IMG/VR virus record: IMGVR_UViG_3300047554_000268
Location: 1 to 28,497 of that record
DNA: 28,497 nucleotides
Strand: one strand, 5' to 3'
DNA from: a virus
Positions 1 through 9,929 of this stretch are shown in pieces (positions within the stretch are counted from its first letter, which is position 1; every line of letters begins with the position of its first letter). Both the position numbers and the translations under genes were made by a program. The notes under the pieces are model-generated. The model worked only from the letters and a program-made list of their open reading frames with translations, made no database searches and had not been told where the DNA came from.

Positions 1-3
1 CTT

Positions 4-17
4 GACACGAGCGTGTC
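4..17. repeat. Short palindrome upstream of the nuclease gene
   Basis: GACACG-AG-CGTGTC is a perfect 6+2+6 inverted repeat beginning 34 bases before the first ATG of the replication block. A TTGACA hexamer (2-7) overlaps it, but I see no good -10 element at the right distance. It could be an operator or simply the end of an upstream gene cut by the window edge. Confidence 0.35.
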
Positions 18-37
18 GCAGACGGTACGGTCCAGCC

Positions 38-229
38 ATGAATCAGCCAGAATATATTTCCTTCTCCCAGTTCACGACATACCTCTCGTGCTCTGAGAAG
101 TACCGTCTCTCGCGCATCCTCCAACTGGAGGAAGATCCGGCCTGGTACTTTGCAGGCGGTACGGCAGTCCACGCGGCAGCCGACGCAATCGACCACGCAC
201 TACTCGCAGACAAGGTGGTGCCGTTCTGA
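38..229 (+). CDS. RecB/Cas4-like PD-(D/E)XK nuclease, N-terminal part
   Basis: This 63-residue product carries the N-terminal signature of RecB/AddB/Cas4-type nucleases: an S-x-S-Q-x-x-x-Y-x-x-C segment at residues 8-18 (Cys18) and a G-T-A-V-H motif I region at residues 41-45. The core catalytic motifs are missing here and continue in the next gene in another frame. The reading frame stops with TGA at 227-229, sharing an A with the ATG at 229 (TGATG), an arrangement typical of translational coupling. The ATG at 38 is chosen because the conserved motif begins soon after; an in-frame TTG at 2 is possible. In related phage proteins both halves are one polypeptide, so this is either a true gene split or a one-base frameshift, natural or a sequencing error. 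Confidence 0.75.
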   Translation: MNQPEYISFSQFTTYLSCSEKYRLSRILQLEEDPAWYFAGGTAVHAAADAIDHALLADKVVPF

Positions 230-894
230 TGACCGCACAGGCAGCAGGACTACAAGCGTTCGAAGAATCCATGGCGGAAGCCATCGTCGCCGGCAAGGGC
301 AAGACGTGGCGTGCAGGTGGACGAGCATCCAAGGCGTTCCCCAACAAGGAAGACGGCACGTGGTGGCGGTTAGAGGGACCGAAGATGGTCCACTCGTACT
401 ACCAGTGGCGACTGAAGAACCCAGCAATGGACATCTGGATCACACCAGACGGAACACCCGCCATCGAGCTCGCTATCAACGTCACCATCCCAGGTGGCAT
501 CGTACTCAAGTGCTACATTGACCGAGTATTCCAGGACACGCAGGGCAACCTGATGATCGTGGACTTGAAGACTGGCAAGGCACCGTCGTCCAGCCTCCAG
601 CTCGCAACCTATGCTCTCGCCATCAAGCAGCAGTTCGGTATCGACGTGAAGTACGGGTCGTACTGGATGGCACGCGAAGGCAAACTGGACACGGTGCATG
701 ATCTTGACTTCATGCCGAGGGACATGGTGTCCCGTTGGATTCGTGACGTACACAAGGCAATCACCTTGGGCCTGTTCGTGCCGAATATTACGATGATGTG
801 TAACTCTTGTGGTTTGAAGAAAGAGTGCTATGCTTTCGGTAGCACTACACACAAGCCTAACTTTGATAGCGACTTGGAGGAAAGTAATGAATGA
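229..894 (+). CDS. RecB/Cas4-like PD-(D/E)XK nuclease, C-terminal catalytic part
   Basis: This 221-residue product has the catalytic core of a PD-(D/E)XK exonuclease: motif II Y-I-D-R (Asp98), motif III V-D-L-K-T-G (Asp112, Lys114) and the downstream Q-x-x-x-Y motif (Gln124, Tyr128). Near the C-terminus lies C-x2-C-x5-C (Cys191, Cys194, Cys200), which in Cas4 and AddB nucleases joins one N-terminal Cys to bind a 4Fe-4S cluster. Here that Cys (Cys18) is encoded by the preceding gene. The likely role is DNA end resection or recombination beside the resolvase and helicase genes. The ATG overlaps the upstream stop as TGATG and has an AAGGTGG stretch (212-218) about ten bases upstream. Nuclease family assignment is firm. 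Whether it works as a two-chain enzyme is inference. Confidence 0.85.
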   Translation: MTAQAAGLQAFEESMAEAIVAGKGKTWRAGGRASKAFPNKEDGTWWRLEGPKMVHSYYQWRLKNPAMDIWITPDGTPAIELAINVTIPGGIVLKCYIDRVFQDTQGNLMIVDLKTGKAPSSSLQLATYALAIKQQFGIDVKYGSYWMAREGKLDTVHDLDFMPRDMVSRWIRDVHKAITLGLFVPNITMMCNSCGLKKECYAFGSTTHKPNFDSDLEESNE

Positions 895-1315
895 GCCGAA
901 GCACAAGCTCACAGTAAAGATCCAGGGTGAGCTCCGTACCATCCAGGGTGACACGTATGAAGAGTTCACTGCTGAGCGGGACAAGGCACTGGAAGGTATT
1001 CAGGCTGATGTTGAGTTCGTTAACCTGGTCCGTGCTGCTTCGAACGCAGCGACTGTACTTGCAGGCGGAGAGACTGTTGCGCAGCAGGCAACACCCGCAC
1101 CCGCAGCATGGGACGCACCCGCCGCAGCACCCGCAGCCTTCGGTGCAGCAGCAACCCAAATGTGTGACCACGGCCCGATGACTGCACGCAGTGGCGTAGG
1201 ACAGAAGGGTCCGTGGCGTGGCTGGTTCTGCCCCACCGCCAAGGGAACACCCGGCCAGTGCAAGGCAATCTTCGTGAACCGAGGAACTGCCGACTGGAAC
1301 AACTTCCCCGCATAG
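887..1315 (+). CDS. Small protein with Ala/Pro linker and C-terminal Cys/His motif
   Basis: The 142-residue product has an N-terminal polar domain (residues 1-60), a low-complexity linker rich in Ala and Pro (about 65-90), and a C-terminal region with C-D-H-G, a G-P-W-R-G-W-F-C stretch and a final Cys, which looks like a small zinc-binding or nucleic-acid-binding fold. The ATG at 887 overlaps the end of the nuclease gene by 8 bases and has GGAGG at 876-880, so this start is preferred over an upstream in-frame one. Its position directly after a recombination nuclease makes a single-stranded DNA-binding or nuclease-accessory role possible, but I do not recognise a named family. Confidence 0.8.
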   Translation: MNEPKHKLTVKIQGELRTIQGDTYEEFTAERDKALEGIQADVEFVNLVRAASNAATVLAGGETVAQQATPAPAAWDAPAAAPAAFGAAATQMCDHGPMTARSGVGQKGPWRGWFCPTAKGTPGQCKAIFVNRGTADWNNFPA

Positions 1316-1317
1316 TC

Positions 1318-1360
1318 TTGGGGCGGGGTTATTGAATGGGAAGCAGTAGCCCCGCTCCAA
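1318..1360 (+). terminator. Intercistronic GC-rich hairpin
   Basis: TTGGGGCGGGG (1318-1328) pairs with CCCCGCTCCAA (1350-1360) as an 11-bp stem with one G-U pair and a 21-base loop. It begins three bases after the stop of the preceding gene. No T-tract follows, so it may be a weak terminator, an attenuator or an RNA stability element rather than a classical rho-independent terminator. Confidence 0.45.
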
Positions 1361-1380
1361 ACCTTCCTAAAGGAGAACCA

Positions 1381-1518
1381 ATGAACGGATATGCAGTAAC
1401 GATCAGAGCGTACGGATCAGAAGACACTATCGCTGACGTTAACGCCATCATCAACTATCTTCAGCCCCTCGGGCTCACCGTAGACAATATTCAAATCATC
1501 CCAGTAAACCCGTTCTAA
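1381..1518 (+). CDS. 45-residue hypothetical protein
   Basis: The ATG at 1381 has a good AAAGGAGA ribosome-binding site just upstream. The product looks like a small alpha/beta unit: a beta-like start (Y-A-V-T-I-R-A-Y), an amphipathic helix (residues 15-28) and a final strand ending in N-P-F. I do not recognise a family. It is followed without a gap by the GTG start of the ATPase gene at 1519, so the two are probably co-translated. The hairpin in front of it may set it apart from the nuclease genes. Confidence 0.7.
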   Translation: MNGYAVTIRAYGSEDTIADVNAIINYLQPLGLTVDNIQIIPVNPF

Positions 1519-2298
1519 GTGCGTACCCTAGATAGGGCAGTCCGATCCATTGATCGTGGAGGATCGGCACTCCCAATGCCATTCAAGTCCTGGTCGGACA
1601 ACCACATCTCTATCCGCCGAGGTGAAGTCAGCATGATCGCTGGCCCACCCGGTGCCGGCAAGTCAACCGTTGCCCTAGCACTCGCAGTGAAGGCACAAGT
1701 ACCTACCCTGTACGCATCCATGGACAGCCACGAATCCACTATGGCTATTCGTTCACTGTCCATGGTGACGGGTGTACGTCAGCAGGAAGTCGAAGAGCGT
1801 ATGCTTAACGAACCTGACTGGGCTGCACGCACCCTTCGGGAAAACGTCGGACATATCAAGTGGATGTTTGATGCTTCTCCCACTCTGAATGATCTTGAAG
1901 ATGAGATCAACGTGTATCGCATGACGACAGGTTCCGACCCGCAACTCGTGGTAGTGGATAACGCTGTTGATGTGACGCACGATTCAGGTGACGAGTTCTC
2001 CTCACTCCGGTCGCTTATGCGAGAGGTGAAGTGGTGGAGTCGGGAACTAAACGCAGCTTTCCTGATCCTCCACCACACGTCAGAGTCCTACGACGGCTAC
2101 CCGTGCCCACCTAGGGCAGCGTTGCATGGCAAGATTGCACAGATCCCGTCGCTCATCATGACTCTAGCGTCACAGCCTGGTGGACTGGCAGCGGCAGCGG
2201 TGAAGAACCGTTACGGTCCCGCTGATGGTACTGGTAAGACGGCTATCTGGATGGACTACTCGCCTGCTGTAATGATGGTGAAGGACTTTGAGGGATGA
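1519..2298 (+). CDS. RecA/DnaB-superfamily ATPase, probable helicase-type
   Basis: The 259-residue protein has a Walker A G-P-P-G-A-G-K-S-T at residues 42-50, a Walker B L-V-V-V-D-N at 143-148 and an H-H-T motif near 185-187. This order and spacing match the RecA fold of AAA_25/RepA-type and DnaB-type helicases. It lacks a DnaB N-terminal domain and is much shorter than a full replicative helicase. It probably uses ATP to act on single-stranded DNA at the phage fork or in recombination, next to the primase and resolvase genes. The start is GTG immediately after the previous stop. A RecA-like recombinase or RepA-like helicase are the alternatives. Confidence 0.85.
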   Translation: MRTLDRAVRSIDRGGSALPMPFKSWSDNHISIRRGEVSMIAGPPGAGKSTVALALAVKAQVPTLYASMDSHESTMAIRSLSMVTGVRQQEVEERMLNEPDWAARTLRENVGHIKWMFDASPTLNDLEDEINVYRMTTGSDPQLVVVDNAVDVTHDSGDEFSSLRSLMREVKWWSRELNAAFLILHHTSESYDGYPCPPRAALHGKIAQIPSLIMTLASQPGGLAAAAVKNRYGPADGTGKTAIWMDYSPAVMMVKDFEG

Positions 2299-2657
2299 GC
2301 CAATACAACAAGGCCAAGGGTTCCCGCTGGGAAGCAGACCTAGAGAACTACATCAATGAGTGTGGTATCAAGGCACGCCGGCTACCCCGTGCAGGGGCCA
2401 AGGACATTGGCGATGTTGCTATTGAGATGCTAAACAACCATGTCATTGTGATCGAGGCGAAGAACACTAAGACTCACGACATGGCTCAGTATCTTCGTGA
2501 AGCCGAAGTGGAAGCTGGACACTATGACGAGAAGTACAACACTCTCGCCTATGGTGTAGTGGTTACGAAGACTAGACAGAAGCCCACTGGTGACGGTAGG
2601 GTTACGATGACGTTGGATACTTTTATTAACTTCTTGAACTGGGAGTCGCTGGCATGA
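2295..2657 (+). CDS. Hjc-like Holliday junction resolvase
   Basis: The 120-residue protein has the layout of archaeal-type Hjc resolvases of the PD-(D/E)XK fold: K-G-S-R-W-E-A-D-L (Glu13), R-L-P-R-A-G followed by a G-D motif (Asp40), and V-I-V-I-E-A-K (Glu54, Lys56). Family members cleave four-way DNA junctions. In a phage the expected job is to remove branches before packaging or to resolve recombination intermediates. The ATG overlaps the stop of the ATPase gene by 4 bases (ATGA), and its own stop overlaps the next gene. Confidence 0.85.
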   Translation: MSQYNKAKGSRWEADLENYINECGIKARRLPRAGAKDIGDVAIEMLNNHVIVIEAKNTKTHDMAQYLREAEVEAGHYDEKYNTLAYGVVVTKTRQKPTGDGRVTMTLDTFINFLNWESLA

Positions 2658-2839
2658 ACAGTACGCACTGCAATCATTGCAACGAAAGACTTAGGCATAA
2701 GGACTATCCTGGCTCCATGCGCGTAATCCTTGAAACTCACGGTGGCGATGCTGGAGAAGCCTACCTTCATGAGTTCTGTATCGTTCCCTGGTTTGATAAG
2801 GTTCGCACCACGTTTGCGGAAGAGATCGGTGTCACGTGA
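2654..2839 (+). CDS. Small Cys-knuckle hypothetical protein
   Basis: The 61-residue product begins with a C-N-H-C knuckle (Cys6, Cys9) and has a later H-E-F-C (His39, Cys42), a possible single zinc site. It overlaps both neighbours by 4 bases. I do not recognise the family. Its position between a resolvase and a primase fits a DNA-associated accessory role. Confidence 0.75.
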   Translation: MNSTHCNHCNERLRHKDYPGSMRVILETHGGDAGEAYLHEFCIVPWFDKVRTTFAEEIGVT

Positions 2840-3219
2840 CCGAGGCCCGGTTTGATATCTGGCCCGTGCTAGAGGCATACGGCTGGGATCTGCCAGGGCC
2901 ACGAGGAACATGGCAATCCATCAAATGCCACGCACACGACGACGGACACGCATCCTGCCGCATCAGCTCGGACGCAGGCCACGTCAAATGCCTAGCATGT
3001 GGATTCTCAGGCGACGCTATAGATGTAGTACGACACTATGAAGGATGTGGATACAAGGATGCTGTCACTAGATGCGAGAGTATTACTGGAGGAAGCGACA
3101 GTGGCGTATCAGGCACAGCTAAACGAGGTCGCACCGTATCTGGTGGCTCGCGGTCTGAGCAAAGAGGCCGCGCTTACACACCGCCTCGGTTACGTTCACG
3201 AACCGGTGATCGGGCATGA
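2836..3219 (+). CDS. DnaG-type primase, zinc-finger part
   Basis: The 127-residue ORF starts with GTG overlapping the previous stop. Residues 31-55 form a CHC2 zinc finger (C-H-A-H, then C-L-A-C, ligands Cys31, His34, Cys52, Cys55) followed by G-F-S-G-D-A-I-D, the classic DnaG template-recognition module. About the last 45 residues (after the C-E-S-I-T-G-G segment) are Arg/Ser/Gly-rich and lie opposite the start of the Toprim gene in another frame, so this tail may be a by-product of the overlap. In many phages this finger is fused to the catalytic domain; here the catalytic part is a separate overlapping ORF. Confidence 0.85.
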   Translation: MTEARFDIWPVLEAYGWDLPGPRGTWQSIKCHAHDDGHASCRISSDAGHVKCLACGFSGDAIDVVRHYEGCGYKDAVTRCESITGGSDSGVSGTAKRGRTVSGGSRSEQRGRAYTPPRLRSRTGDRA

Positions 3220-3676
3220 GCAGTATGCGGGACGGTTATCAATCCCCTACATCACACCCACGGGTGTCGTTGACATCAGGTTCCGTGCCATCCGTGAAGA
3301 CGACTCCCCTAAATACTTGTCACGTAGCGGTGCAGAATCCGCCCTCTACAATGTGCCTGCCTTTGAGATGGACAGTGATTACATTGCAATCTGCGAGGGT
3401 GAACTGGACACCATCATTGCCAACTCAATGGTCGGTGTACCCGCTGTTGGTCTTGCCGGCGCTAACGCCTGGAAGAACTGGTACTCCCGTGCATTCATGG
3501 ACTACCGCAAGGTGTTCGTTCTGTGTGACGGTGACCAGCCAGGGCGAGACTTGGGTAAGAAGATTGCTCAACAGATTGATGTTGCTATCGTGGTGACAAT
3601 GCCCGATGGTATGGATGTGAACGACCTGTACCTGTCCGAAGGTCCGGACGGTTTGCTGAAGAAGATGGGACTGTGA
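3101..3676 (+). CDS. DnaG-type primase, Toprim catalytic part
   Basis: The 191-residue product has the DnaG-like catalytic layout: Y-L-V-A-R-G-L-S (residues 13-20), R-L-G-Y-V (28-32), and a Toprim domain with C-E-G-E-L-D (Glu99) and C-D-G-D (Asp143, Asp145) plus G-R-D (Asp150). It would synthesise RNA primers with the zinc-finger protein encoded just upstream in a different frame. The frame is open from 3029 with an ATG at 3038. I chose GTG 3101 because GGAGGAAG at 3088-3095 lies five bases before it and no ribosome site precedes 3038. The overlap with the finger gene is therefore 119 bases. Confidence 0.85.
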   Translation: MAYQAQLNEVAPYLVARGLSKEAALTHRLGYVHEPVIGHEQYAGRLSIPYITPTGVVDIRFRAIREDDSPKYLSRSGAESALYNVPAFEMDSDYIAICEGELDTIIANSMVGVPAVGLAGANAWKNWYSRAFMDYRKVFVLCDGDQPGRDLGKKIAQQIDVAIVVTMPDGMDVNDLYLSEGPDGLLKKMGL

Positions 3677-8803: not shown

Positions 8804-9003
8804 GCCTTCACCCTCTCTCTCAAAGCCTCAATAGCCTCATCATCATAGCCTAGATACTCAATGGCGGTAGCAGCATAGTCCATACTGCCAGCATCAGCAT
8901 ACGGATATGGCCTCGGCTCGAAGTTACGGAACTCGCACCACCGTAGGTACATGACACGTGCCATGAGTGCCGTGACTGCCTGTGTTTCCATGTCGTTGCT
9001 CAT
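8800..9003 (-). CDS. Hypothetical 67-residue protein
   Basis: The product is helical and Arg/Glu-rich, with W-C-E-F-R-N-F-E-P-R in the middle. The ATG overlaps the stop of the methyltransferase gene (TAATG), and the stop overlaps the next start. No family recognised. It may be a partner of the methyltransferase only in the sense of coupled translation. Confidence 0.7.
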   Translation of the reverse strand: MSNDMETQAVTALMARVMYLRWCEFRNFEPRPYPYADAGSMDYAATAIEYLGYDDEAIEALRERVKA

Positions 9004-9929
9004 TACTTGCCCATTCTTTCTAGTAGTTGTATCGCTAGGCGTGCCTGCTGCGGAACCACGCCATTACCGAGCATCTTCAGCTCCTGCGTAGGTGTCAAGT
9101 CGTGGCCTGTCACCCAACCCTCGGGCAAACCCATCATCCACTCAACCATCGCAGGGTTCAGTCGTGTCTTGCCATTGTTTACGGTAGGTGCTGGTGCTTT
9201 ACGTCCAGTCACTCGCTCCCACCTGGCTATGGCGTAACCGTACTGACCCCAATCAACTCCTGATGCAGGCTCCTGCCGTGACCGTTGCCGTTCCGATGCT
9301 TCGCCTTCTGCGTGTTCTTCCACGCTTCCCATTCGTCGGGTGTCTTGTTGTTCCCCATGTCCACCACTGTCGGTGTCGGTAGCAGTTGAGTTACGGCTAT
9401 CGTTTGTAGCCCATTCGCTGACTGAGAACGGGAACCCGAAAGGTTCGGACCCTTGTAGTCCGAGTGCTGCGGGGTAGGCAGCAATGAACACCCTTGCACG
9501 TTGGTGGGGTGCACCGGCATCTGATGCTCGGACAACACCCCATCTTGCACCATACCCCAGCTCGGCAATTTCCCCGAGAACTTCACGGAGTCCGAGAGTA
9601 ACGTGTCCTCTAACGTTCTCCAGTAGCACGAGTCGTGGTCGAAGTACGCTAATTCCCTCACGAATGTACGGCCATAGGTGTCGCTCATCATTCTCTCCCT
9701 TACGTAAACCAGCATGGCTAAACGGCTGACACGGATAACCACCCGTCATCACATCAACAGGTGCAACCGTAGTCCAGTCAATCTTCTTGATATCACCCAG
9801 GTTAGGTGCGTCATGGTGCGAACTGAGTACCTTGCATGCTGCGGGTTCGATCTCCGAGTACCATGCGAGATCACCACCAACGGCCATGTCTAGGCCACCG
9901 TATCCCGTGAATAGGGAACCTACTCTCAT
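9003..9929 (-). CDS. DNA cytosine-5 methyltransferase
   Basis: The 308-residue protein has the ordered C5-MTase motifs: motif I S-L-F-T-G-Y-G-G-L-D (5-14), motif IV G-G-Y-P-C-Q-P-F-S (catalytic Cys67), motif VI E-N-V (104-106), motif VIII Q-R-A-R-V-F (143-148) and motif X G-N-G-V-V-P-Q-Q-A near the C-terminus. It transfers a methyl group from S-adenosylmethionine to C5 of cytosine. The target-recognition region (about 160-275) is Ser/Glu/Arg-rich and short. No partner endonuclease is visible, so protection of phage DNA from host restriction is the likely role. GAAAGAGGTGAC precedes the ATG. Confidence 0.93.
   Translation of the reverse strand: MRVGSLFTGYGGLDMAVGGDLAWYSEIEPAACKVLSSHHDAPNLGDIKKIDWTTVAPVDVMTGGYPCQPFSHAGLRKGENDERHLWPYIREGISVLRPRLVLLENVRGHVTLGLREVLGEIAELGYGARWGVVRASDAGAPHQRARVFIAAYPAALGLQGSEPFGFPFSVSEWATNDSRNSTATDTDSGGHGEQQDTRRMGSVEEHAEGEASERQRSRQEPASGVDWGQYGYAIARWERVTGRKAPAPTVNNGKTRLNPAMVEWMMGLPEGWVTGHDLTPTQELKMLGNGVVPQQARLAIQLLERMGK

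Follow-up and report, generated by a model that had tools for sequence, protein, structure and literature searches.

The opening end of the window, by which we mean the whole stretch of DNA analyzed here (an IMG/VR virus record of 28,497 bases), carries a pair of ORFs that together resemble a single Cas4-like nuclease, and the question raised by this locus is whether the enzyme is made as 2 proteins, with its active site and the ligands of a predicted Fe-S cluster divided between them, or whether an ordinary gene has been broken. The first-pass annotation had assigned Cys18 and motif I to a 63-residue ORF (ORF1) and the catalytic residues plus a C-x2-C-x5-C triad to a 221-residue ORF (ORF2), and our analysis found the coordinates to be right and all the residues present (Table 1).

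Table 1. Features of the ORF1/ORF2 locus, in positions of the window.
Feature	Positions	Strand	Description
Possible promoter, TTGACA-N17/18-TACGGT	2..30	+	Ends about 7 nt before the ORF1 ATG; pattern placement
ORF1, 63 aa	38..229	+	Nuclease N-terminal part: helical cap, first cluster Cys, motif I; ATG at 38, TGA at 227-229
Cys18 codon, first predicted Fe-S ligand	89..91	+	Invariant in split and fused rows
GGTAVH, motif I with His45 (GGxAxH45)	155..172	+	His invariant in all rows
SD-like AAGGTGGTG	212..220	+	Within the end of ORF1, ahead of ORF2; by anti-SD energy; core identical in L002, L003 and L004
TGATG stop/start overlap	227..231	+	ORF1/ORF2 junction
ORF2, 221 aa	229..894	+	Catalytic core and C-terminal Cys triad; ATG at 229, stop ends at 894; start is the first ATG/GTG/TTG in frame after the stop before 97
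Asp98, motif II	520..522	+	Invariant
Asp112-Leu-Lys114, motif III, D-x-K	562..570	+	Asp and Lys invariant
Gln124...Tyr128, QhxxY motif (Q124xxxY128)	598..612	+	Gln and Tyr invariant
Cys191-x2-Cys194-x5-Cys200, predicted Fe-S ligands	799..828	+	Invariant; spacing as in Cas4 SSO0001 (PMC4176176)
L5 gp49-like, DnaB/RecA-like helicase, Hjc-like nuclease	887..2657	+	Replication/recombination genes downstream of ORF2

Profile searches placed the 2 ORFs on complementary stretches of the same domain. Pfam PDDEXK_1 matched ORF1 over profile positions 2-50 (E 3.8e-6) and ORF2 over positions 83-246 (E 2.9e-10), both above the Pfam gathering score, and additional matches were obtained with phrog_69 for ORF1 (E 6e-9) and with the phrog_1870 exonuclease (E 5e-46) and Cas_Cas4 (E 3e-7) for ORF2. 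Taken as a pair, the ORFs possess the domain profile and the RecB motifs (His, Asp, D/E-x-K and QhxxY) of the pfam12705 Cas4-like exonucleases, with H45 on ORF1 and D98, D112-x-K114 and Q124/Y128 on ORF2, as well as the 4 conserved cysteines, 1 plus C-x2-C-x5-C, of the iron-staple arrangement found in the Cas4/AddB type. A PD-(D/E)XK Cas4-like exonuclease is a single polypeptide, whereas here we find 2 conserved ORFs and therefore a variant in split form rather than a typical protein of the pfam12705 type. A CRISPR-associated Cas4 acting in adaptation would be expected beside cas1/cas2; the window genes scanned with Pfam belong to phage replication, DNA metabolism, terminase and methylase functions, and no cas gene was seen among them.

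The same pair recurs well beyond this record. The nearest relatives (L002-L004), with an ORF2 94% identical to that of the window, have an identical TGATG junction, and L006, with an ORF2 59% identical, is split as well, with an ATGA junction. We gathered a set of 196 loci from viral contigs, using ORF2 itself and alignments of ORF2 and of ORF1 as queries, together with a few named phage loci. Among the matches listed, and as counts of loci fetched (the best 80 from each of the ORF2-alignment, ORF1-alignment and fused-relative scans) rather than population frequencies, 178 of the 196 are split, 13 are fused and 5 lie on contigs that start inside the nuclease gene. The fourth search, which started from fused relatives, yielded 33 fused and 47 split loci among its best 80 and brought in a second large split group (L233-L277). 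At least 143 distinct ORF1/ORF2 pairs were found on viral contigs, many of them from other samples, and in every pair the cut falls in the loop that follows the helix of motif I; genome contigs scanned with ORF2 gave no match. The cultured actinophage homologues that we fetched are all fused, and for one of them, the RecB-like Orf49 of Rhodococcus phage RGL3 (JN116826; L196), the annotated protein seems short: its start at 1327 is probably too late, as the frame (1201-2016) is open upstream of this position and takes in the N-terminal Cys and motif I. Close relatives with a single uninterrupted gene, which the first-pass annotation had named as the observation that would speak against 2 polypeptides, were looked for by comparison, and the closest proved to be split and the fused ones more distant. 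The two-protein state is well supported, and it reaches far beyond the window.

The residues that would build the active site and the cluster are retained on both sides of the cut. Cys18, His45, D98, D112, K114, Q124, Y128, C191, C194 and C200 are invariant, among the matches listed, in 143 of 143 split pairs and 11 of 11 fused sequences, and the same 10 residues are invariant in all 115 rows (75 split and 40 fused) of a wider set of listed matches. The search patterns of the alignment scans included the region of the His and no Cys, and the invariance of the cysteines is therefore not built in. Comparison of the window with its 94% relatives gave dN/dS values of 0.014-0.03 for ORF1 and 0.10-0.12 for ORF2, and inside clusters the pN/pS of ORF1 was 0.03-0.21, mostly below that of ORF2; in clusters other than that of the window it was 0.09-0.21 for ORF1 and 0.07-0.24 for ORF2. 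Purifying selection acts on both ORFs.

To place the cut in a three-dimensional context, we used AlphaFold2 models of single chains only, one of L157, a naturally fused relative (pLDDT 92, pTM 0.88), and one of ORF2 alone (pLDDT 87). The position of the cut on the L157 model is loop 59-64, which joins the helix of motif I (42-58) to the helix 65-77, and the ORF2 model begins with the helix equivalent to the latter. The distance from motif I to RxxGR is 33-78 residues in split loci (median 43) and 35-50 in fused ones (median 40) among the matches listed, and therefore little was lost at the split. The L157 model covers the structures of the AdnA nuclease domain, ACE1, Dna2, EXO5 and Cas4, with the best TM scores at about 0.5-0.6. 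The enzyme labeled "Cas4/AddB-like" in the first-pass annotation is better described as a phage Cas4-like exonuclease of the pfam12705 type with these as its nearest structures. The ORF2-alone model retrieved the same families with TM scores of 0.3-0.49 and mostly an rmsd of about 10 A, in a comparison where the 2 models used different alignments; these poorer matches would fit an N-terminal part that completes the fold, to which they lend weak support.

ORF2 alone is nevertheless predicted to fold with fair confidence and carries motifs II, III and QhxxY, and it may thus have a function of its own. The halves might accordingly act separately and share no cluster, ORF2 as a minimal nuclease and ORF1 as a small helper, for example in DNA binding or regulation, and the fact that Cas4 Cys mutants can remain active (PMC4176176) would agree with this. 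We consider such a division of labor improbable, because ORF1 retains precisely the motif-I His and the Cys and aligns with the first part of the nuclease profile, and because among the matches listed no locus with upstream sequence has lost it: ORF1 is missing in just 3 of the best 80 ORF2-alignment loci, whose contigs start inside the nuclease gene. The Cys triad of ORF2 is also invariant, though by itself it would be one cluster ligand short.

The TGATG overlap and the possible ribosome site before ORF2 that the first-pass annotation had claimed were both confirmed, the SD-like AAGGTGGTG being located 8 nt upstream of the ORF2 ATG with an anti-SD duplex of -10.6 kcal/mol. Such sites are enriched ahead of ORF2, with 29% of loci among the matches listed at or below -7 kcal/mol compared to 3% of background positions. 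The commonest junctions among the matches listed are, in nt, -4 (39), -8 (29), -1 (23) and -11 (19), followed by others, and the frame of ORF2 relative to ORF1 varies among lineages with the junction length; a "+23" class is an artefact of the preference for ATG, as a GTG giving the -4 overlap exists there. Ahead of ORF1, a promoter-like placement 6-7 nt before the ATG is also present in L006, L041, L042, L048, L053 and L061, and a formal promoter scan did not call the 2-30 element of the window and returned nothing significant. The -10-like hexamer at this distance is possibly a weak sign of a leaderless or near-leaderless ORF1 mRNA in the clade of the window.

Short overlaps preceded by an SD-like site would also suit programmed ribosomal frameshifting, which would produce a single full-length chain, alone or beside ORF1, and the lineages with -8 or -11 overlaps would need only a +1 shift. 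The TGATG of the window, however, would need a -1 shift and lacks an obvious slippery heptamer, and the shift required varies by lineage. Moreover, about 10 lineages have one or two whole genes between ORF1 and ORF2, often coupled by short overlaps: L008 has ORFs of 107 and 218 aa, single inserts are found in L011 (114 aa), L041 (72 aa) and L102 (60 aa), further ones in L134 (62 aa), L139 (35 aa) and L188 (64 aa), and in the L233 group two conserved genes (about 70 and 65 aa) lie there. With whole genes in this position, a single recoding event could not join the halves. These inserts and the differing frame relations led us to reject a conserved programmed frameshift as the general explanation, and a full-length recoded chain is highly improbable as the product of this locus; in certain lineages, frameshifting could still give small amounts of a fused chain. 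An assembly or sequencing frameshift, the alternative raised in the first-pass annotation, or a dying pseudogene confined to one contig can be ruled out with hardly any doubt, because, although a single-base change could yield 2 overlapping ORFs, TGATG is repeated in the independent 94% relatives and replaced by a differently built ATGA in the 59% relative, the same split is found in many independent contigs with more than 140 distinct pairs, intact genes are inserted between the halves, and ORF1 has the low dN/dS given above.

We also considered a homing endonuclease as the general cause of the split and rejected it, as the tested inserts between the halves showed no clear match, save a marginal "endonuclease" one (E 0.06; the 107-aa ORF of L008), and inserts are lacking in most split loci. 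In a tree built from 55 representatives, the split/fused label changes at least 5 times, with 4 of the changes forced by well-supported branches, in a count that is limited by long branches and low deep support. A single origin was rejected, since one split clade has a log-likelihood 111 lower (AU p 3.6e-12). The fused outgroups point to splits that arose repeatedly at this one loop, and re-fusion has possibly occurred in places, for example in L140/L230, which are nested in a split group.

Several other genes in these contigs deserve a record. In much of the L233-L277 group, one insert (about 70 aa) is a zinc-ribbon-like protein with the pattern CPCG...CxxC and the other (about 65 aa) bears "KRAKVISRDAF", a pair possibly linked functionally to the nuclease halves, and a CxxC...CRRC zinc-ribbon-like ORF of 35-36 aa lies exactly between the halves in L139 (2502-2608) and L143 (2085-2194). 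In L008, ORF1 is preceded by a small ORF, and immediately upstream of that lies an HNH endonuclease gene (2086-2535; phrog_826, E 3e-38). In the window itself, a C-5 cytosine methyltransferase gene (9003-9929, minus strand; E 1.4e-39) stands amid a minus-strand block of small genes, and the primase looks split too: its CHC2 zinc ribbon and its TOPRIM part are on ORFs in different frames (2836-3219 and 3038-3676) with an overlap of about 180 nt, as in L002-L005; this arrangement could represent 2 proteins or a programmed frameshift.

Taken together, ORF1 and ORF2 are very probably co-translated halves of one Cas4/AdnA-type PD-(D/E)XK exonuclease, whose active site and cluster would be completed across the interface. 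The pairing of the N- and C-terminal parts is based on co-conservation and co-location; the physical assembly, the inter-chain cluster, the nuclease activity and the biological role are our inferences. The start of ORF2 inside the end of ORF1 would permit stop/start coupling and re-initiation, aided by an SD site of its own, so that the halves would be made together and fold into one catalytic unit. ORF1 would supply the N-terminal helices, the motif-I His45 and the cluster ligand Cys18, and ORF2 would supply Asp98, Asp112-x-Lys114, Gln124/Tyr128 and the Cys191/194/200 triad. The interface would then complete the metal site and, most probably, a [4Fe-4S] or [2Fe-2S] cluster, which would act as a staple between the chains. 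The enzyme would probably resect DNA ends during recombination or replication of the phage DNA. Some Cas4 proteins remain active nucleases after mutation of a Cys (PMC4176176), so the cluster need not be essential.

More tentatively, the cluster may be truly inter-chain and hold the halves together, assembly may hang on cluster loading (iron or redox), and the repeated splits may have served to make a dangerous exonuclease switchable; we regard this extension as conceivable but rather doubtful. If the cluster does hold the halves, removal of iron or of one Cys should part them, which would be a direct test of the "iron staple". If the co-translated assembly of both halves is right, this would be a Cas4/AddB-type nuclease that is widely split in nature, with 2 chains completing both the catalytic metal site and the Fe-S cluster. 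The loci also show that a single loop of one enzyme has been broken, and has taken up genes, repeatedly in phages. The N-terminal partner is likely to be overlooked by automated annotation because of its size of only about 63 aa, so these phages appear to have a truncated nuclease.

Among known systems, the closest are the pfam12705 exonucleases (phrog_1870, phrog_69) of Mycobacterium, Cutibacterium, Rhodococcus and Thermobifida phages, which have the same motifs and 4 Cys and similar neighbors (a DnaB-like helicase and an HJ resolvase). In these cultured phages, a gene order similar to that of the window adjoins fused exonucleases, those examined being one chain of about 270-300 aa, whereas the enzyme of the window is 2 chains cut after motif I. 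Cas4 phylogenomics has described pfam12705 Cas4-like proteins in mycobacteriophages and propionibacteriophages, and a text search of that paper found no mention of their splitting (PMC5704561). Cas4 (SSO0001, Pcal_0546) and the iron-staple domains of AddB/AdnA, whose nuclease domains are the best structural matches of the fused relative, share the RecB-like core, the N-terminal Cys and C-x2-C-x5-C (Cys32 and Cys188/191/197 in SSO0001; PMC4176176). In these proteins, however, the 4 ligands are on one polypeptide, and their CRISPR or helicase partners are absent here. A split Cas4-like nuclease, or a recurrent split dividing the ligands of an iron-staple cluster, was not found in the literature searched, which is weak evidence. 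We know of no inter-chain Fe-S cluster in the Cas4/AddB group; the nitrogenase Fe protein and photosystem I FX, which are not nucleases, have Fe-S clusters ligated by Cys of 2 polypeptides, as is likewise predicted for ORF1/ORF2.

T4-like phages offer known examples of genes in pieces, and such genes may remain functional: NrdA of Aeh1 is split by mobE, the T4 topoisomerase gene 60 by mobA and the DNA polymerase of phage 25 into 43A/43B, and NrdA and the phage 25 polymerase were reported to be active once reassembled (PMC2988022). ORF1/ORF2 resemble them in being an enzyme gene cut into what appear to be 2 separately translated parts, with fused homologues elsewhere, inserts between the parts and an SD site for the second. 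Unlike the T4-like cases, which are tied to one insertion each, the split described here recurs at one loop across many phages, mostly without an insert, and it divides a predicted Fe-S cluster and a metal site between the 2 chains.
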